DNA of 14,823 nucleotides from Chloroflexota bacterium (GTDB taxonomy: Bacteria; Chloroflexota; Anaerolineae; Caldilineales; Caldilineaceae): the NCBI GenBank assembly GCA_003577005.1, contig QEUW01000192.1, positions 1 through 14,823 of the forward strand. The letters are read 5' to 3'. Positions 1-14,823 of the stretch are shown one piece after another. Numbering within the stretch: the first letter of the stretch is position 1; each line of letters starts with the position of its first letter. Both the position numbers and the translations under genes were made by a program. Under the pieces are notes generated by a model. The model was not told where the DNA came from. It was given only the letters and a program-made list of their open reading frames with translations, and did no database searches.

Positions 1-7
1 ATGCGAA

Positions 8-45
8 AACCCTCTGCTCCACTATCCCGAGTGACACAGAGGGTT
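8..45 (-). terminator. Possible stem-loop terminator beyond the att site
   Basis: AACCCTCTG at 8-16 is a perfect 9-bp inverted match of CAGAGGGTT at 37-45, with a 20-nt loop. On the minus strand the hairpin lies just past the tRNA 3' fragment and is followed by TTCGCAT, so only a very short T run. It may end transcription from the tRNA side or from the integrase. The large loop and weak T tract keep confidence low. Confidence 0.3.
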
Positions 46-69
46 CACATTGCCATACCTTGCAATATA

Positions 70-102
70 GGCTCCCCGGGCTGGACTCGAACCAACAACG
101 TT
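70..102 (-). other. tRNA 3'-end fragment, probable attachment (att) site
   Basis: Read on the minus strand, this stretch has a T arm with stem GTTGG/CCAGC and loop TTCGAGT, then the 3' acceptor strand CCGGGGA, discriminator G and CC. The next base is T, so CCA is not encoded. The matching 5' acceptor strand TCCCCGG is not found upstream on the minus strand, so the tRNA is not complete here. A 3' tRNA fragment about 25 bases past an integrase stop is the usual att arrangement of tRNA-targeting tyrosine recombinases. A U1-A72 pair with G73 fits tRNA-Asn, but the isotype is an inference because the anticodon is absent. Bases 1-69 would then be flanking DNA, and the intact tRNA would lie beyond the right end of the window. 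Confidence 0.72.
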
Positions 103-124
103 CAAGCCCTCACACCCCAATCGA

Positions 125-1132
125 CTAAACCCGAAGCAACCTCGCTACCTCTTCCATCGGCGAACAGAACACCGCACGGATCGAGTCGATTGTTCGCAGA
201 TCGTACAGTTGATGTGTGATGCCTTGTGGTTTGTGGCCGATCTGCAACTGTAGCAGATGATAGTGGCCCTCTCCTGGACGTTTGTCGGCAAAGTAAGTTG
301 TGAACGTACGCCGGAAATCGTGGGCGCCGCCGATTTCCACCCTGGCCGCGGCTGCAATCGTCCGCAACACCTTGTATACGCCCTGACCGGTTAGCGAGTT
401 ACCATTGATAACAGACGGCCACAGAGGGGCATCTGCGTCCCGCCTGCGCAGGGCGAGCCACCGCGCCAGATAGCAACCTGTATACCGATCAAAGCAGGCC
501 AAGCGCTGATGAACCGTTCGGCCACGTACCTTTTTGGCCGAGCGAATGTGCAGATCGCCGCTGTTGTCTGTACGCAGGGTTACATCTCCTACCGTCAGGG
601 CAGCTACCTCCGATCGCCGCGCACCAGTACCGATCAGCGTTGCCAACAGCGCCGAATTGCGCATGCGCAGAAAATGCCGCTCATCCGCCCGAAACTCCAT
701 CTCACCAGCCGTCCGCATCAAGGCAGCCAAATGCGTTATGCCGATCGGTAGATGCAGCCGGTCCGACCCTTCTGGGGCAGCGGGCACCCAATAGGCGCAG
801 TTGAGCGGCTGAGTGTAGCGGCGCCGGGCGGCCCAATGGAACATCGAGCGGAGGACGCCCAACGCCTTTTTTCGGGTCGAGTATGCCAGCCCCAGACCAG
901 TCAACCAGCGGTTATACGCCGATAGATCGGCCTCGCGCAATTGCCAACCTTGCGACGGACCCACCGTCGCCCACCAGTCCAAAAAATGCCGAATTTTGAC
1001 CTGGTAGGCAGTCACCGACGCAGGCGGCAGGCGCCGGGCGCAGTCATCCAGCCAGCGCTCGATGATGACGGACAAATGCAGCCCGTCCAGAATCTCCTCA
1101 TCAGGAGACAAGTCGATTGATATAACCGTCAT
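125..1132 (-). CDS. int: Tyrosine recombinase / phage-type integrase
   Basis: A 335-aa site-specific recombinase that would cut and rejoin DNA at att sites through a 3'-phosphotyrosine intermediate. The N-terminal core-binding (SAM-like) domain spans about residues 19-110. The catalytic domain spans about 130-325 and has the full set: R172 in GTGARRSE, a hairpin Lys at K200 or K201, H271 and R274 in HDFRR, H300 in IGH, and Y310 in HQLYD. Length is normal for XerC/D-like phage integrases. The ATG at 1132 is preceded on the minus strand by GCAGGTG at good spacing. It is the only leftward gene, divergent from the long rightward series, and its stop lies beside the tRNA fragment, which supports integration into a tRNA gene. 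Nothing appears truncated. Which tRNA and what direction control it uses cannot be seen. Confidence 0.95.
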   Translation of the reverse strand: MTVISIDLSPDEEILDGLHLSVIIERWLDDCARRLPPASVTAYQVKIRHFLDWWATVGPSQGWQLREADLSAYNRWLTGLGLAYSTRKKALGVLRSMFHWAARRRYTQPLNCAYWVPAAPEGSDRLHLPIGITHLAALMRTAGEMEFRADERHFLRMRNSALLATLIGTGARRSEVAALTVGDVTLRTDNSGDLHIRSAKKVRGRTVHQRLACFDRYTGCYLARWLALRRRDADAPLWPSVINGNSLTGQGVYKVLRTIAAAARVEIGGAHDFRRTFTTYFADKRPGEGHYHLLQLQIGHKPQGITHQLYDLRTIDSIRAVFCSPMEEVARLLRV

Positions 1133-1717: not shown

Positions 1718-2802
1718 GCGACCTACTGAGGGACAACCGCCAACCAGGATTTTGCATCATCGACAACGAACTACTCGATGAATACGCACCCCGGATCGGG
1801 GCATATGGTGTGGCGGTCTACGCGCTGATCGTCAGATTTGCCGGAAGAAAAGACGCGGCCTTCCCATCATACCAAACTATCGCCGACCGGATAGGGATCA
1901 GCAGACGCAAGGCAATCAGTACAGTACAAGCCCTGCTCGATATGGGACTGATCGAAAAAACGAAACGAGTTGGCCCAACGGGAAACACGAGCAACCTGTA
2001 CACCCTGCTCGATCTCAAGAAACCATCACCTGGTGCATGTGATGCACCACCTGGTGCATGTGATGCACCACCTGGTGTATGTGATGCACCACCTGGTGCA
2101 TGTGATGCACCACCCCTAGTGCATGTGATGCACCCAAAGAAGACACAGTTAAAGAAGACACACTTATTAAGACACAGGGAAGAGAGAGAAGCCCCCGCCC
2201 ACGTCGCACCCCTCATCGATCTCGACTTGCCAAACCCGCCCACCGAGGAGGAGATGGCCCAACGACTGGCCGAGGACACAGGCGCCGTCTCAGTGAAAGT
2301 GTTCAAACATAGACATGCTTCTCGCTATGCGAACGGCCCACACATGAAAGGCGCACAGCTTGCCGGCGAGTACGTCGTGGCAGGGAAGGGCACAAACCCA
2401 GTGCAGATTTACCACGAGCGGTATTCGATTGAGCAACACCCACTGACCGACCCACAACAAGACGACCTGATCGCCATCGTCACCGACTTGACCCGCTGGC
2501 GCAACACCGTCATCCAGTGGAGCCAGACCAGCTACAGCCCCAAAAACATCCGAGGACAGCTAGACTGGTATCACAACGGAACACCGACACATCGAACGGA
2601 GAGCCGTAACCATGCAAGCAATCAAGGAACTGGTAGCAACGGTCGCCCCCGTCCCCACTGGGCCGACTACGACCCCAAGCAAACCGAATACAATCCCGAC
2701 CGAGCCGCCGTCCTCGCCGGATGGAGCGACGAACCAGACATCGACGATTACGGAGAGTACAAGAAGCAGCTTGCAGCACGGGAAGCCGCAGCAGCCGGAT
2801 AG
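1714..2802 (+). CDS. Lambda O-like replication initiator with winged helix and internal iterons
   Basis: A 362-aa protein. Residues about 31-100 form a helix-turn-helix/winged-helix domain (AFPSYQTIADRIGISRRKAI, then GLIEKTKR), as found in phage and plasmid initiators. Residues 105-140 are a low-complexity linker of PGACDAP heptapeptides encoded by the iteron array. A Lys/Arg/Glu-rich piece follows at about 141-160, then a C-terminal domain that could contact the helicase loader. An in-frame ATG at 1651 exists, but 1714 is preferred because it forms an ATGA overlap with the preceding frame and the domain begins soon after. The loader gene starts inside its 3' end at 2612. The order initiator, iterons inside the gene, A+T-rich stretch, loader matches lambda O-P. 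No homology to O is claimed beyond architecture. The initiator role is an inference from HTH, iterons and neighbour. Confidence 0.78.
   Translation: MSDLLRDNRQPGFCIIDNELLDEYAPRIGAYGVAVYALIVRFAGRKDAAFPSYQTIADRIGISRRKAISTVQALLDMGLIEKTKRVGPTGNTSNLYTLLDLKKPSPGACDAPPGACDAPPGVCDAPPGACDAPPLVHVMHPKKTQLKKTHLLRHREEREAPAHVAPLIDLDLPNPPTEEEMAQRLAEDTGAVSVKVFKHRHASRYANGPHMKGAQLAGEYVVAGKGTNPVQIYHERYSIEQHPLTDPQQDDLIAIVTDLTRWRNTVIQWSQTSYSPKNIRGQLDWYHNGTPTHRTESRNHASNQGTGSNGRPRPHWADYDPKQTEYNPDRAAVLAGWSDEPDIDDYGEYKKQLAAREAAAAG
2027..2133 (+). repeat. Five iterons (21-bp direct repeats with dyad core) inside the initiator gene
   Basis: The 15-base core GTGCATGTGATGCAC starts at 2033, 2054, 2075, 2096 and 2119. 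Spacing is 21, 21, 21 and 23 bases, so the sites lie on one DNA face. The third copy has one change (GTGTAT). In copies 1, 2 and 4 the symmetry extends to TGGTGCATGTGATGCACCA, 8-bp arms around GTG. Lambda iterons are likewise dyad-symmetric, about 18-20 bp long and inside gene O. The array encodes the PGACDAP repeats, but the fifth copy is shifted by two bases and reads in another frame (VHVMHP). DNA sequence rather than peptide therefore seems to be conserved. This is probably the binding site of the protein encoded by the same gene. Confidence 0.88.
2134..2190 (+). other. Purine-rich A+T-rich stretch, candidate DNA unwinding element
   Basis: Directly after the iterons the plus strand becomes strongly purine-rich and lower in GC than the gene around it. 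It includes two tandem 15-mers, AAAGAAGACACAGTT (2136-2150) and AAAGAAGACACACTT (2151-2165), differing at one position, then ATTAAGACACAGGG. In lambda-type origins an A+T-rich, strand-asymmetric segment next to the iterons melts first. Position and composition support the same role here. Together with the iterons this defines a candidate origin at about 2027-2190. Confidence 0.6.
2598..2603 (+). promoter_or_regulatory. Ribosome binding site that sets the helicase-loader start
   Basis: GGAGAG lies 8 bases before the ATG at 2612, inside the 3' end of the initiator gene. No comparable site precedes the alternative in-frame TTG at 2771, which has its purine run 12-14 bases away. This favours the long form of the loader and a genuine 191-base out-of-frame overlap. 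Confidence 0.55.
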
Positions 2803-3559
2803 CACCTGCCCGACATGCAAGGGGAATCGCTTCTACATCCCCGACTTGCCCACCACAGACCCCATGTTCGGTCGAGCGCAACGTTGCCACGATTGCGCAA
2901 CGGACCACGCCCAACGGTGCGGACTCAACGAGCAAGAGCTATCCATCACCGCCAGCGACATCCACGGCAACACGCACGCCGAACGCGCACTACGCTACCT
3001 GATCGGGTATATCGCAGACAATCCAACCGGCTGGCTAACCCTATGGGGCAACTACGGCACGGCCAAGACCATGACCGTACAAGCCATCATCGCCTCGCTC
3101 GTGCGACAAGGCAAACCTGCCCGCTTCTACAGGGCCAGCGAAATCGAGCAGGGTTGGTTCGACGATCTCAATGCAGACCGCAGCAACGCCGAACTGTATC
3201 GTCGATTGCCCATCTTGGCTATCGATGAGCTAAACAAGGTCAACCTGCGCAACGACTGGATACGCGAGAGATTCCAGGACCTCATCGACCACCGCTATCG
3301 ACAAGCCGTGGCAGGAAAGCAACTCACGCTCATCACGCTGCAATACGAGCCAAACGATTGCTTACCCGGTGATATTGCCAGCCGGCTCGGAGACGGTCGC
3401 TTCTATCGACCCTGGGTGGGTGGAACAAACAAGCTGGTGATCGACCGTTGGGGCGAGAGGGTTCTGCCCGGCTGCCTGCACATCGAGGGTGAGGACGCAC
3501 GGCCACAGATACCCCCTGACTTCATCACCAAGAAACGGCGAGGAGCAGACAATGGGTAA
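2612..3559 (+). CDS. DnaC-like AAA+ helicase loader
   Basis: A 315-aa ATPase expected to load the replicative helicase at the origin, acting with the initiator upstream. Residues 1-60 are a Pro/Thr/Ser-rich disordered segment that overlaps the initiator gene. A CxxC pair (C66, C69) and C92/C95 make a likely zinc site, as in other phage DnaC-like proteins. The ATPase core has Walker A GNYGTAKT (146-153, K152), Walker B ILAIDE (D205, E206) and a conserved-looking SRLGDGRF (257-264) where DnaC/DnaA-type proteins place a sensor arginine. The start at 2612 is supported by the GGAGAG site; a shorter form from TTG 2771 is possible. The stop at 3557-3559 overlaps the next gene by 8 bases. The C-terminus is basic (KKRR). 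IstB-type transposition ATPases share this fold, but no transposase is present. Confidence 0.88.
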   Translation: MQAIKELVATVAPVPTGPTTTPSKPNTIPTEPPSSPDGATNQTSTITESTRSSLQHGKPQQPDSTCPTCKGNRFYIPDLPTTDPMFGRAQRCHDCATDHAQRCGLNEQELSITASDIHGNTHAERALRYLIGYIADNPTGWLTLWGNYGTAKTMTVQAIIASLVRQGKPARFYRASEIEQGWFDDLNADRSNAELYRRLPILAIDELNKVNLRNDWIRERFQDLIDHRYRQAVAGKQLTLITLQYEPNDCLPGDIASRLGDGRFYRPWVGGTNKLVIDRWGERVLPGCLHIEGEDARPQIPPDFITKKRRGADNG

Positions 3560-4661: not shown

Positions 4662-5343
4662 ACTGACCGGCCTGCTCACCGAGCAGCCAGAGACGCCACC
4701 GCCCCAACCAACATGGGAAACGCACATCGTGATCCCACTGGTGCAGAACCTGGCCGGAGGGATTGCGGTATTCGCACTCTGCTGGACAATCACTGTAGGG
4801 CTAGGCCGCTACTTCCTATGGGATGTGATCCTCAGAGAACTTAGCTTTTGGTCCGCAGTCATCGGCGGCACGGTAACGGCCCTTATGACAATCGTCCGCT
4901 TCTTCGGTGACGAACTCGGTCTATTAGCCGCCGCCTACCGCCTGGGCAAGCGCAGCGCCGACTCACAGATCAACGCCCTGATCGCCGAGAACGAACAGCT
5001 ACGAGCCACCGCCAGAGAAATGCGCGGGACTACCAGCCACAAAACGCAGGAAATGATCGAGCGCATCGACCAGGCACAAAACGACGCAGAGCACCTGCTG
5101 GCGCTGGCCTACGGAGGCCAGAGCATCGCACGGGAGCAAGTCAAAGCCTACATACCACAACGCTCCTGGGAAAGAGCCGTGCAACTCCTGATGGCTTCCG
5201 GCTGTCTCGACCAGAACCGATACCTCGCCGAACCCAACCTTGCCCTTGCGCTTGGCCGACTGCGCTCCTACACCGACACCGACCGCCAACGAGCCACCCA
5301 CGAATCATGGCGACCTGCCTGGTACGTCAAAGCCAAGCACTAA
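4645..5343 (+). CDS. Two-pass membrane protein with cytoplasmic coiled coil
   Basis: A 232-aa protein of unknown function. A Pro-rich N-terminus (about 1-27) precedes two hydrophobic segments, about 33-53 (LAGGIAVFALCWTITVGLG) and 66-86 (LSFWSAVIGGTVTALMTIV). Both tails are likely cytoplasmic. Residues about 103-150 have heptad-like charge and leucine patterning (INALIAENEQLRATAREM and onward), suggesting a coiled coil. Residues 155-205 may form a small helical or winged domain (RSWERAVQLLMASGCLDQNR). The ATG at 4645 has GAGGGAAG just upstream and overlaps the previous gene by 17 bases. The 10-bp repeats begin within a few bases of its stop, so it could be a membrane anchor related to segregation or entry. 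That idea rests only on position. Confidence 0.75.
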   Translation: MPIRNKLTGLLTEQPETPPPQPTWETHIVIPLVQNLAGGIAVFALCWTITVGLGRYFLWDVILRELSFWSAVIGGTVTALMTIVRFFGDELGLLAAAYRLGKRSADSQINALIAENEQLRATAREMRGTTSHKTQEMIERIDQAQNDAEHLLALAYGGQSIAREQVKAYIPQRSWERAVQLLMASGCLDQNRYLAEPNLALALGRLRSYTDTDRQRATHESWRPAWYVKAKH

Positions 5344-5345
5344 TA

Positions 5346-5431
5346 GCACTTTGTACAACTTTGTAGCACTTTGTATAACTTTGCACGCATAGCACTTTAT
5401 GGCACTTTGTACAACTTTGTAGCACTTTCCC
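5346..5431 (+). repeat. Array of eight 10-bp direct repeats (ACTTTGTA), candidate centromere or operator
   Basis: The unit (gc/ca)ACTTTGTA repeats at exact 10-base steps: 5346, 5356, 5366, 5376, then a 6-base break, then 5392, 5402, 5412 and 5422. Units 4, 5 and 8 are degenerate at the end (GCA, ATG, CCC). Alternating gc and ca prefixes also give 20-bp super-repeats such as GCACTTTGTACAACTTTGTA. A pitch near one helical turn puts all sites on one DNA face, as in ribbon-helix-helix centromeres (ParR/parC, omega) and some initiator arrays. It lies about 0.75 kb upstream of parA, in a gap where the A+T content jumps, and starts right after the preceding stop. Confidence 0.85.
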
Positions 5432-5808: not shown

Positions 5809-6190
5809 AATTCGAGCGCGAGCCTACACCGAAGCCGCCCGTCTAGAAGCCGACGCCCGCCGCTACGAGGCAAGCCAGGAGACGATCCGGGCGGGCATCA
5901 TGGCCGCTACGATCCCTTGGATCGCCCTCATCATCATGGGCGGAATTGTGGCCGCTATCGTGGTCTGGTGGCAAGGGAAAATCTGGCACACTCGCACAAC
6001 CATGCTCCTCGCCCAGCAACCCAGGCCACAACTACCACGCCCGCGACAGCCAGGACTCGCCGATCTCATGCTGTTGGCCCAGCAGCAGGGATACCAGATC
6101 GAGATCGAAGACCAGACCGCCTATCTGCTCGACGCCAGTGGCCGACGCGTCGGCCAACGCTCGCTGACCGACAAAGGAACTAACTCATGA
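5714..6190 (+). CDS. Putative lipoprotein / membrane protein with coiled segment
   Basis: A 158-aa protein of unknown function. The first 20 residues look like a lipoprotein signal: Arg at 6, a hydrophobic core IILIPLVALILV, and a lipobox ending in GC at C20. A charged, Ala/Glu/Arg-rich helix (about 29-58) follows, then a strong membrane segment (about 62-86, ending AAIVVWWQGK), then a Pro/Gln-rich linker (100-114) and a small C-terminal domain (about 115-150, GYQIEIEDQTAYLLD). AGGAGA lies about 10 bases before the ATG at 5714. Its TGA overlaps parA's ATG (ATGA at 6187-6190), so it is translated together with parA. If C20 is lipidated, the TM helix would return the tail to the cytoplasm. Two plain TM helices are the alternative. 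Confidence 0.7.
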   Translation: MLTTTRIILIPLVALILVGCLPDPMGMTTRTEIRARAYTEAARLEADARRYEASQETIRAGIMAATIPWIALIIMGGIVAAIVVWWQGKIWHTRTTMLLAQQPRPQLPRPRQPGLADLMLLAQQQGYQIEIEDQTAYLLDASGRRVGQRSLTDKGTNS

Positions 6191-6975
6191 CCCACATAAT
6201 CGCATGTGCCAACTCGAAGGGCGGAGTGCTCAAGACCACCACCGCCGCCACCCTCGCCCATAAGCTGGCCCTCATGGACGCCGGCGTCATCGCCATCGAC
6301 GCCGATCCACAAGGCAGCCTCAGCATGGTGTTAGGGCTGATGCCGGACAACTCTTTCGCCGCCGCCATCGCCGGCAATCTGTATATCCCCCAGCACGCAC
6401 GCGGATTCGACACCCTGACCGGCAACGACACCACCAAGATGGCAATCAACGAGACGGCCGCCCACATCGCAGCCGGCGCGCTCACGCGAGCCGACATCGC
6501 CGCCCATCTGCGAGAACTCGGACACAACTACGACTACACGGTCATCGACACCCCGCCCAGCGGCATCCTACAAGAGATCGCTATCCTGGCCGCCGATACG
6601 ATTGTGATCCCCGTCGTGCTCGATTATCTGGCCCTCGCCGGACTGGGCAACATGCTACGGATGATCTGTGCGCTGGGCGCGCAACACACACGGACGATCA
6701 TCCTGCCCACGATGTACATACGCAGCCGGGAAAGCGAATACAACCTATCCCTGCTGCACGAGACCTACCCAGGTCACGTCTGCACAGCAGTCCCCTACTG
6801 CACTGCCGCCAGAGACGCCGCAGCAAACGCCCAAACCATTTGGGAAATCAAGGACGCCCGATCCAACCGCAGCGCCACCCTCGCAGCCATGCGCCAGGCA
6901 TACGAGGAACTCGCCCACTGGATCACCCGAACCGACCAGGACACAGATGGAGCACTAACCGATGAGACCCAATAA
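6187..6975 (+). CDS. parA: ParA/Soj-type partition ATPase
   Basis: A 262-aa deviant-Walker ATPase expected to move plasmid-like DNA over the nucleoid. The P-loop KGGVLKTTT (11-19) keeps the signature Lys11 and Lys16, but has Leu where most ParA proteins have Gly. P1 ParA and F SopA also vary at this position (KGGVYKT). Walker A' is IDADPQG (D38, D40) and Walker B is YTVIDTPP (D121). No N-terminal HTH extension is present, so it resembles the small type Ib/Soj ParA. It is coupled to the lipoprotein gene upstream by ATGA and overlaps the exonuclease gene by 14 bases. No typical ParB (ParBc nuclease-like domain) follows. Candidate partners are the DUF3102 protein, the 56-aa protein, or a protein binding the 10-bp array. 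Confidence 0.93.
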   Translation: MTHIIACANSKGGVLKTTTAATLAHKLALMDAGVIAIDADPQGSLSMVLGLMPDNSFAAAIAGNLYIPQHARGFDTLTGNDTTKMAINETAAHIAAGALTRADIAAHLRELGHNYDYTVIDTPPSGILQEIAILAADTIVIPVVLDYLALAGLGNMLRMICALGAQHTRTIILPTMYIRSRESEYNLSLLHETYPGHVCTAVPYCTAARDAAANAQTIWEIKDARSNRSATLAAMRQAYEELAHWITRTDQDTDGALTDETQ

Positions 6976-9468: not shown

Positions 9469-10362
9469 ATGAAACGCATTCTAACTCCGCTGATCTTCGG
9501 CGCGCTCTTTGCGCTCAGCAGCGTCACGGCTTTCGCCATCATAGACGGGCAGGACGCCCCTCGTACGCTCTACATGGCGCGCCTGGCAGTCAACGGCTCA
9601 GTGTGCGGCGCAGCCCTGATCGACCCCCAATGGGCGCTCAGTGCAGCCCACTGCATCGATCCCCACATCAACGGGCTACCCGTCACTTCCACGCTGGCCG
9701 ACATCGCACCACACACCAAAATCAGGATCGGCGAGTATGACACATCCCGGCAGGAAGATCACGAGCGATGGATCGCCGTTACCGAGATCATCACGTTTGG
9801 CTATCGCTACGGCGATCCCGGAAACCACGACATTGCGCTGATCCACCTGGCCGAAACGTTGACGAGAACCGAGTTTGTCGATTTTGTTCCACTCGACACA
9901 GCCACGCCAGCCCTTGAAGAACCCATCACGATCTACGGCTGGGGAAAGCAGACTACTACGCCACGCCGCCCAATCCTACAGGTTGGACAAACCAGCGTCA
10001 GCCGACTTTACCTGCTCTACTTTGCAACACAGGGCGGCGCGCACATCGGCCCAGGAGACAGCGGCGGCCCGGCCATCACCCAATACAACACGCTGGCCGG
10101 AGTCAGTAGCTCAGTGTCAGGCACTACCAGCTATTACACAGCCGTCGCACCCTATCGCCAGCAGATCGAGGAGACGATCAGCGCCCACAGCAGGCCCGAC
10201 CAGCCCGCAGCAGCCGACCTGTCCGACCCATGCCCGCCCGACGCCATGTCGCCTTGCGACCACTGCGTGATCGAGATACAACCCGGCATCTGTTTGGAGT
10301 TTGAACCCGGCCACTACTCGCCCATCTACTTGCCCATCATCTACGGAGAGCCAGCCCTATGA
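9469..10362 (+). CDS. Secreted chymotrypsin-fold serine protease
   Basis: A 297-aa exported S1-family protease. The signal peptide is residues 1-23 (MKR, hydrophobic core, AFA cleavage site). The mature chain would begin IIDGQDAP, equivalent to the IVGG start of active trypsin. The triad is complete: H61 in LSAAHC, D121 in NHDIALIHL and S198 in GPGDSGGP. C46 and C62 match the conserved C42-C58 disulfide. The position that is Asp189 in trypsin is His192, so trypsin-like Arg/Lys cleavage is not expected. A C-terminal extension (about 235-297) is Pro- and Cys-rich (C245, C253, C256, C265) and ends in YSPIYLPIIYGEPAL. An in-frame GTG at 9433 lies inside the palindrome and is rejected. The stop overlaps the next gene's ATG (ATGA at 10359). 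Confidence 0.93.
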   Translation: MKRILTPLIFGALFALSSVTAFAIIDGQDAPRTLYMARLAVNGSVCGAALIDPQWALSAAHCIDPHINGLPVTSTLADIAPHTKIRIGEYDTSRQEDHERWIAVTEIITFGYRYGDPGNHDIALIHLAETLTRTEFVDFVPLDTATPALEEPITIYGWGKQTTTPRRPILQVGQTSVSRLYLLYFATQGGAHIGPGDSGGPAITQYNTLAGVSSSVSGTTSYYTAVAPYRQQIEETISAHSRPDQPAAADLSDPCPPDAMSPCDHCVIEIQPGICLEFEPGHYSPIYLPIIYGEPAL

Positions 10363-13881: not shown

Positions 13882-14823
13882 ATGGTTAAAGCGGCGAATA
13901 ACCCAGAGACCGAAGATAAACCTGAGGTCTCTGGAAGTTTGGTCGAAATGCTATCAGATATGCTGGACGCTGATTTGTACATTTATAGCGGACAGTTGGG
14001 GTTCGAAGGCGTTAACCTTTTTATAGACGCTGTTGAATTTCAACCGCGGCGAACCAATGCAGCCTTATTTCTTACAACTTGGGGCGGCATCGCTGAGGCC
14101 GCGTACATGATAGCTCGACACATTAAGCGCCGTTATCAGAAATTTATCCTCTACATCTTTGGGGTATGCAAGAGCGCAGGCACATTGCTTGCACTTGGCG
14201 CCGATGAAATCGTGATGTCATGTCGGGGAGAGCTAGGACCCTTGGATGTACAAATTATGAAAGATGACGAGATGGGCATGCGCAGTTCGGGACTTGTCAT
14301 CTCACAGGCTCTCGATTCGATTAGCGAGGCAGCTTTTGGCATTTTCGAACAGTCATTTCTTCAGCTGAAAACTAGAAGTGGTGGAATAATTACTACTCGA
14401 ACCGCCAGCAGTATTGCGAGTTCAATCGCGGTGGGATTACTGTCGCCCATCACTGATCAGATCGATCCATTACGGCTTGGTGAAAACGAGCGCGCGATGA
14501 AGGTAGCAGTAGAATACGGGAGACGACTGAATCCAGATCTAAGAAAAGTCAACCGTTTGACAGTGGAGTATCCGTCTCATATCTTTGTTATTGATTTTGA
14601 GGAAGCAGAAGAAATTTTTGGAAATGTTCGGGAACCTACAGATTTAGAGATTGTATTTGAACATGATATGATGGAGACCCTCGAAGAAAAGACTGGGCAT
14701 AGTTGCATTCGAATGCCCCATCCAGAACTGCCTATCGTTCTTCGTCTTCGTGTCGCTGAGGAGGAAATTGCTCATGTTGAAACGAATAGTGATTTCTCTG
14801 CCGGCACAACCAATTCCACAACA
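13882..14823 (+). CDS. Serine dehydrogenase proteinase-like ClpP/crotonase-fold protein (partial)
   Basis: At least 314 residues, open at the window end. It resembles the SDH proteinase family (PF01972 type, related to SppA and ClpP). The oxyanion-type TTWGGIAEAA (65-74) is followed by IFGVCKSAGTLLALGADEIV, with putative nucleophile S98 in KSAG, then ELGPLDVQI (D122). No signal peptide or membrane helix is seen, so it is likely cytoplasmic. An A/G-rich site (AAAGGGGG, 13868-13875) lies 6 bases before ATG 13882. GC content and codon use differ sharply from everything to the left (many A/T-ending codons, no C bias), suggesting a later-acquired cargo gene or the edge of another module. The 70-base gap before it could hold its own promoter. 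Enzymatic activity is not certain. Confidence 0.85.
   Translation, partial: MVKAANNPETEDKPEVSGSLVEMLSDMLDADLYIYSGQLGFEGVNLFIDAVEFQPRRTNAALFLTTWGGIAEAAYMIARHIKRRYQKFILYIFGVCKSAGTLLALGADEIVMSCRGELGPLDVQIMKDDEMGMRSSGLVISQALDSISEAAFGIFEQSFLQLKTRSGGIITTRTASSIASSIAVGLLSPITDQIDPLRLGENERAMKVAVEYGRRLNPDLRKVNRLTVEYPSHIFVIDFEEAEEIFGNVREPTDLEIVFEHDMMETLEEKTGHSCIRMPHPELPIVLRLRVAEEEIAHVETNSDFSAGTTNSTT

Follow-up and report, generated by a model that had tools for sequence, protein, structure and literature searches.

An iteron array inside a winged-helix initiator gene as the likely lambda-O-type replication origin of a Chloroflexota integrative element

The window analyzed here, the whole 14,823-base contig QEUW01000192.1 of a Chloroflexota bacterium, contains a gene for a winged-helix initiator with an array of iterons in its coding sequence (Table 1). 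The array consists of five 15-bp dyads with GTGCA half-sites at 2033-2133, whose starts are spaced 21/21/21/23 bp. An earlier note on this DNA had described five copies at this spacing; the spacing stands, but the copies are not identical, four being exact and the third carrying one mismatch. Tandem Repeats Finder (TRF) reports the array at 2027-2134 with 5.0 copies and 94% matches. Two tandem dyad pairs were observed in the window (mean of 0.00 in 200 dinucleotide shuffles), together with five single dyad sites at ≤1 mismatch (shuffle mean of 0.79), a number reached in 0 of 200 shuffles. A fixed-gap dyad caller found five dyads in the gene with a score of 47; the highest score among 20 codon shuffles was 16. 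The dyads sit directly behind the PF13730 domain, inside the gene, and an A-rich, G-poor repeat follows immediately after the last iteron.

Table 1. Coordinates of the array, the initiator and associated features in the window
Feature	Position	Strand	Basis or remark
tRNA-Thr (agt anticodon) or attachment end derived from a tRNA	70..163	-	ARAGORN; overlaps integrase stop/gene 3' end
Tyrosine integrase	125..1132	-	PF00589 and PF02899 above cut-off
Winged-helix initiator gene, 362 amino acids	1714..2802	+	PF13730, 33.2 bits; PHROG O-like families
Recognition helix, residues 64-76	1903..1941	+	AF2 secondary structure; covariation of residues 65 and 69
Arg65 codon	1906-1908	+	Recognition helix
Ser69 codon	1918-1920	+	Recognition helix
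Iteron 1, GTGCATGTGATGCAC	2033..2047		Coding frame A
Iteron 2, GTGCATGTGATGCAC	2054..2068		Coding frame A
Iteron 3, GTGTATGTGATGCAC, one mismatch	2075..2089		Coding frame A
Iteron 4, GTGCATGTGATGCAC	2096..2110		Coding frame A
Iteron 5, GTGCATGTGATGCAC	2119..2133		Shifted frame, encodes VHVMH
Candidate DNA-unwinding element, A-rich repeat	2134..2180		TRF, repeat copies, duplex stability
DnaC-like helicase loader open reading frame, from first ATG	2612..3559	+	phrog_50, E 1.2e-12; phrog_3277, E 1.4e-5
ParA-type ATPase	6187..6975	+	PF13614, 5e-27; phrog_164, 5e-38

The array is very likely the replication origin of an integrative element and lies, as in lambda O, inside the gene for the initiator that would act on it, because the dyads are conserved irrespective of reading frame, a conserved A-rich repeat adjoins them, a loader gene stands next door, and changes in iteron bases go along with changes in the recognition helix. 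These features, like the gene order, are directly observed. The proposal in the earlier note of a lambda O/P-style layout, with the array in a winged-helix gene adjoining a DnaC-like loader, is therefore supported.

The frame use of the dyads strongly supports selection on the DNA rather than on the encoded peptide. Copies 1 to 4 encode G-A/V-C-D-A-P, whereas copy 5, as computed frames confirm, is out of register and encodes V-H-V-M-H, yet the dyad is kept. When viral contigs were scanned at the DNA level alone for GTGCA-N5-TGCAC in tandem, at least 120 loci were returned. An initial winged-helix profile matched 78 of the 120 loci listed (67 at an E of <1e-3), and an iterated profile placed 103 in winged-helix initiator genes (E of ≤1e-3). 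Among the other 17, five have their start within the linker, at the stretch's edge, two are initiator-like by eye, and ten were not recognized. A composition-matched control palindrome, CACGT-N5-ACGTG, at the same spacing gave two loci in viral contigs, neither with the domain. Contrast scans of viral contigs gave at least 120 loci for GTAAA-N5-TTTAC (86 of those listed with the domain) and 15 for GTTCC-N5-GGAAC (9 with the domain). The control (2), GTTCC (15), and GTGCA-N6-TGCAC (65) scans are complete, whereas the GTGCA, GTAAA, and A-rich-repeat scans each stand at no fewer than 120 loci, so that counts are not directly comparable between scans. In the N6 scan, 36 of the 65 loci (L464-L528) are winged-helix initiators; gap length is therefore not diagnostic, and the set was kept as a replicate of the half-site rule.

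The listed loci form 66 clusters at 70% identity; 65 of these entered the statistics and 63 the composition profile, counting copies with ≤1 mismatch. Between the domain and the start of the first dyad behind it, the median distance is 6 residues (range, -3 to 32), and 158 of 214 dyad spacings are 21 to 24 bp, with a further 20 of 17 bp. Dyad copies are distributed over the three frames as 175/83/21, 47 of the 65 dereplicated genes mix frames, and 198 different hexapeptides are encoded. The dyad is thus independent of frame in dozens of gene families, in agreement with the earlier suggestion of selection on DNA. In homologues recovered with protein queries, these half-sites are encoded under other peptides (SAPHAL, VHDMH, and VHTVH), and two frames of the same half-sites occur both in P0003 (SAPHAL and VHDMH) and in L001 (GAPDAP and VQEMH). 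In another Chloroflexota genome (L394), a PF13730 gene contains six CAAACCCTGAACG-like units, with CAGGGTTT behind the first ones, and then AACCGTCAA repeats; this is the same plan with a longer and differently spaced iteron.

Within the A-rich repeat, AAGACACA occurs at 2140, 2155, and 2169, the third copy in another frame, and TRF reports a 15-bp repeat at 2136-2177. By computed duplex stability, 2147-2191 is the least stable 45-bp stretch in the initiator gene, and 2134-2178 reaches the 99th percentile when the whole window is ranked. The coding strand is also A-rich and G-poor in the ∼45 nucleotides (nt) behind the last iteron of relatives. In 52 of 56 GTGCA-type genes taken into the test, A is.40-.45 and G.11-.19 behind the iterons, versus.29 and.26 in the remaining gene; in 29 of 30 GTAAA-type genes, the values are.50-.53 and.06-.11 versus.36 and.21. 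Near-repeats (8-mers with ≤1 mismatch and ≥2 copies within 60 nt) were found behind the iterons in 46/52 GTGCA-type and 28/29 GTAAA-type genes, compared to 21/51 and 14/29 farther down the same genes, with mean copy numbers of 2.38 and 2.97 versus 1.58 and 2.22 in codon shuffles. The nearest related element, in a Caldilineaceae genome described below, carries TGAACAAGACTCAT (2.6 copies) behind its iterons, and a 42-base stretch of the enterobacterial A-rich repeat is present in 100 phage records, 62 of them from Vibrio. A scan for the GAACCAGTCA-type repeat alone returned at least 120 loci, and a winged helix was encoded in 109 of the 116 stretches examined among the 120 listed, the other four probably being loci already in the set. 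Across L146-L258, the GAACCAGTCA repeat, which was the search pattern, is nearly constant, and the upstream iterons fall by eye into at least five classes: GTGCA, GTGAA, GGGCA, GTGCC with a 7-bp gap, and GTGTA. Iteron and unwinding-repeat modules therefore seem to be exchanged separately.

The initiator matches PF13730 with 33.2 bits (cut-off, 25) and four PHROG “replication initiation O-like” families. An AlphaFold2 (AF2) model predicts an N-terminal winged helix, a low-confidence linker, and a C-terminal part. The winged helix-turn-helix (HTH) is modeled with helices at residues 18-42, 53-60, and 64-76 and wing strands at 80-86 and 92-98, and segment 102-175 has a predicted local distance difference test (pLDDT) score of <50. 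The coding frame across the array is probably nearly free because the linker encoded there is of very low model confidence and probably disordered. The loader open reading frame (ORF) begins 191 bp ahead of the initiator end if the first ATG is assumed as its start. In relatives, a fixed rule selected one downstream ORF in each of 53 of the 66 clusters, and 54 ORFs, including the window loader, were scanned. Among the 25 families listed of 67, in which memberships may overlap, the DnaC-like phrog_50, phrog_3277, and phrog_26922 were matched by 7, 6, and 3 ORFs, respectively, P-like families by 3, DnaB-like families by 6 and 5, and primase/helicase families by 6.

The earlier note had proposed a search for different iterons matched to diverged HTH domains, and such pairs were found, residues 65 and 69 covarying with iteron bases 3 and 5. 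From 315 initiators, those lacking a mapped half-site class or with >15 gaps were dropped, and dereplication at 70% left 98. The mutual-information test used 86 proteins (56 GTGCA and 30 GTAAA), including those of the window, L001, L005, L007, and L009. The Arg65 column shared 0.93 bits with half-site class, about the class entropy itself; the Ser69 column came next with 0.39 bits, and the median excess over shuffles was 0.06. Both residues lie one turn apart on the recognition helix predicted by AF2. Residue 65 is Arg in 51 of 56 GTGCA-type proteins (Asn in 3 and His in 2) and in 0 of 30 GTAAA-type proteins (Pro in 19, Gln in 7, Met in 2, and Ile and Val in 1 each). A tree built without residues 61-73, itself short and poorly resolved, shows 11 changes of class (a mean of 25 and a minimum of 20 in shuffles), and the class is shared between nearest neighbors in 71/86 cases, indicating phylogenetic signal but also several independent changes.

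A protein-first test used 53 distinct ORFs, including that of the window, from protein or PF13730 searches (E of ≤1e-6), with a fixed-gap array caller blind to the protein. Without the window, G3 was present in 11/14 loci with Arg65 versus 2/14 without it (Fisher, 0.0018), and C5 was present in 10/12 with Arg69 versus 0/16 without it (Fisher, 5e-6). Seven of these 28 loci (L002, L003, and L005-L009) stem from the first protein search, and most are also in the mutual-information set; L005, L007, and L009 are shared by both tests and L001 is not, and L384 and L279 duplicate the contigs of L003 and L007, respectively. For 21 genome loci outside the discovery set, the ratios were 9/12 versus 1/9 for Arg65-G3 (Fisher, 0.0075) and 8/10 versus 0/11 for Arg69-C5 (Fisher, 0.0002); with one locus per helix sequence (19 loci), p was 0.020 and 0.0007, respectively. 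Loci L002-L009 and L394-L424 had been inspected by eye before the Arg69 rule was fixed. The eight accepted loci not inspected beforehand (L425-L463, with two related pairs) agree with Arg65-G3 in 7/8 cases and with Arg69-C5 in 8/8. Furthermore, all 25 distinct domain sequences of the N6 set, some nearly identical, have Arg65, versus 29/53 in the protein-first set. The window itself (Arg65, Ser69, and GTGCA) agrees with both rules. Among the relatives, L007 pairs Pro65 with GTAAA, L003 pairs Gln65 and Arg69 with GTTCC, and L002 pairs Arg65 and Arg69 with GTGAC.

Comparison with relatives suggests which amino acid reads which base. A PF13730 code of Arg65 for G3 and Arg69 for C5, with lock and key held in each element, specificity readable from sequence, and modules evolving separately in an almost free frame, is a reasonably probable generalization. 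The open-licence literature searched contained neither the residue-to-base rule nor the separable unwinding repeat. Homologue P0002 is 53% identical to the window initiator across 86% of the latter, and this similarity resides in the C-terminal half; the winged helix and the repeat peptide (GEWHPREGEDGIHARGEGGIAMP) differ, as if domain and origin had been swapped together, the different iteron being deduced from the peptide only. By eye, the P0002 residues aligned with positions 65 and 69 are Asp and Arg, for which the rule would predict a C5 and no G3.

Origins inside initiator genes are a known kind, bound by an N-terminal winged helix in lambda O and the RepA_N plasmids (PMC5703833). The window initiator lies outside both families: it has no match to PF04492 up to an E of 0.1, whereas lambda O matches at 5.7e-36, and PF06970 (RepA_N) is not among its matches to the same limit. 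Conversely, lambda O is missed by the winged-helix profile. Window and lambda share a module in which the iterons (four dyads in lambda) lie midway along the initiator gene, with an A-rich tract right behind them and an overlapping loader gene downstream, P in lambda (PMC7466680). The lambda tract contains AAAAGACACTATTAC, close to AAGACACAGTTA of the window. Lambda iterons are 18 to 19 bp (ATCCCTCAAAACGAGGGA) and window dyads 15 bp, and the window loader is DnaC-like rather than P-like. In pSK41-type Rep proteins, as described in PMC5703833, the Rep boxes are central in rep and bound by the N-terminal domain, and the part of the protein that ori encodes is dispensable. The same source describes a chimeric pPR9 Rep in which ∼500 bp (domain plus origin) was exchanged for a PF13730 domain and the mini-replicon replicates, a pattern resembled by P0002 versus the window; its account of pSK41 and pPR9 mentions no overlapping loader. 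Another known N-terminal winged helix is that of DnaD/DnaB(Gst); DnaD belongs to the primosome, and according to PMC7145576 its N-terminal domain does not bind DNA. Coliphages 2H10 (“Lambda_2H10”) and PhiR49_2 and Aeromonas phage AsXd-1 encode a related PF13730 winged helix, behind which lie dyads of the GTGCA type, in several cases with a single base altered in an arm, followed by GAACCAGTCA-type A-rich repeats; the A-rich sequence, host, and gene neighborhood differ from those of the window. The earlier description of the locus as unlike lambdoid phages is therefore apt for the gene set, which differs from that of lambda, and is rejected for the repeat, since the half-site occurs in the O-type genes of 2H10 and PhiR49_2.

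By analogy with lambda and RepA_N precedents (PMC7466680, PMC5703833, and PMC7145576), the winged helix would bind each dyad as a dimer, with Arg65, as covariation suggests, reading G3 of each GTGCA half-site. The five bound sites could then build a complex like the lambda O-some, which would strain and open the A-rich repeat, and the DnaC-like loader, judging from its families, would load the DnaB helicase of the host onto the strand thus opened.

Accounts of in-gene origins usually center on lambda and a few plasmids, and the layout is found here in about 300 listed viral loci and in Chloroflexota elements. With protein and binding site in one gene, natural protein-DNA pairs can be read directly, so that winged-helix specificity, origin compatibility, and origin swapping become workable from sequence first, and a putative strand-opening repeat is available for study beyond model phages. 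If the code holds, each mobile element carries lock and key, incompatibility specificity could be read from its sequence, and iteron, spacer (N5 or N6), and unwinding repeat would each evolve as a module of its own, under a reading frame that is almost unconstrained.

Several observations weigh against an in-gene origin or against the code. No domain match at an E of ≤1e-3 was obtained for 17/120 listed GTGCA loci, 34/120 listed GTAAA loci, and 6/15 GTTCC loci, and the N6 scan, meant to control negatively for the geometry, failed in that role, the 5-bp gap not being unique. AF2 models the protein as a whole poorly (mean pLDDT, 52), and a structural match to DnaD ranks level with TFE-alpha and RNA polymerase III subunits, which are unrelated. 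Significant N5 arrays were called in only 29 of the 53 protein-first ORFs. Exceptions to the rule are the five GTGCA-type proteins with Asn or His at position 65, Arg65 without G3 in L403, L015, and L425, G3 without Arg65 in L005 and L412, and Arg69 without C5 in L403 and L412; Clostridioides phage AR1074-1 (L144) has the aligned Arg by eye and contains GGTGC four times, yet no dyad array was called in it. Outside the gene, 5339-5383 is the fourth least stable 45-bp stretch of the window, ahead of 2147-2191 (eighth).

This last stretch overlaps an intergenic T-rich tandem repeat of very low duplex stability at 5344-5428 (TAGCACTTTGTACAACTTTG; about 4.4 copies of 20 bp by TRF), which precedes the ParA gene and is a possible centromere. 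Its instability, repeats, and position before ParA would also suit a replication start, with the in-gene array as a mere autoregulation operator. Such a start is very improbable, since the Caldilineaceae element retains in-gene iterons and the A-rich repeat while TRF reports no comparable intergenic array in the 15 kb examined, and the in-gene layout is kept in about 300 loci among the matches listed. Autoregulation could coexist with origin function. TubR-type proteins bind in-line repeats, and the in-gene array might instead be a partition centromere at which a TubR-like winged helix and the ParA encoded by the element segregate it, the origin lying elsewhere. TubR of pBtoxis is indeed the best sequence match among solved structures, at a weak profile E of 0.026 (Foldseek rank 31, E of 0.056), and neither TubR nor RepA_N chains are among the best 50 VIA-align matches listed, which does not tell against either. 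The iterons discussed in PMC6669507 are those of centromeres. The gene overlapping the initiator encodes a DnaC-like loader and not a motor protein, the downstream ORFs of relatives include DnaC-like, P-like, and DnaB-like families, and an unstable A-rich repeat behind the array is not an expected need of a centromere, all of which make partition very improbable as the function of the array.

Retention of the repeat for a PGACDAP linker peptide, or as a neutral minisatellite, would fit a 21-bp unit that holds frame in four copies and encodes a low-complexity linker. This explanation was rejected with almost no probability left to it, as frame use across gene families contradicts it: copy 5 is out of frame, most families are multi-frame and hexapeptides diverse in the cluster statistics above, P0003 and L001 encode both frames, and the bases of the iterons change together with the recognition helix.

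The very likely explanation of the array as an in-gene origin includes, as one of its parts, that the element is a tRNA-associated integrative element. Genes run mostly rightward after the leftward tRNA and integrase, whose 3' overlap resembles an attachment site arrangement; no exact direct repeat of ≥12 bases was shared between window positions 1-260 and the remainder. A small ORF lies between integrase and initiator, and small ORFs separate the loader ORF from ParA. To the right of ParA are genes for an RNase T type exonuclease, DUF3102, a trypsin-like protease, DUF5131, and three DNA methylases. No phage structural genes were recognized by domain and PHROG profiles among the window proteins scanned, and a single-protein scan of viral sequences matched one stretch, with none confirmed. 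The nearest element found with its neighbors is in a Caldilineaceae (Chloroflexota) metagenome-assembled genome (L008/L018), with matching genes in the same order. In a comparison with twenty window queries, two of which (orf4080 and mt2) were one base out of frame and so give no meaning to their lack of a match, identities were 30% for integrase, 34% for the initiator (residues 5-324), 31% each for loader and ParA, 46% for DUF3102, and 44% for the 9022 ORF. No tRNA was found adjoining the Caldilineaceae integrase.

The trypsin-family protease gene (9469-10362) is carried within the mobile element, flanked by the 9022 ORF and DUF5131. At the right end, an ORF for a ClpP-like SDH-type protease (13882-14823) contains 6 of the 12 least stable 45-bp stretches of the window, and this end is perhaps another module or flank.
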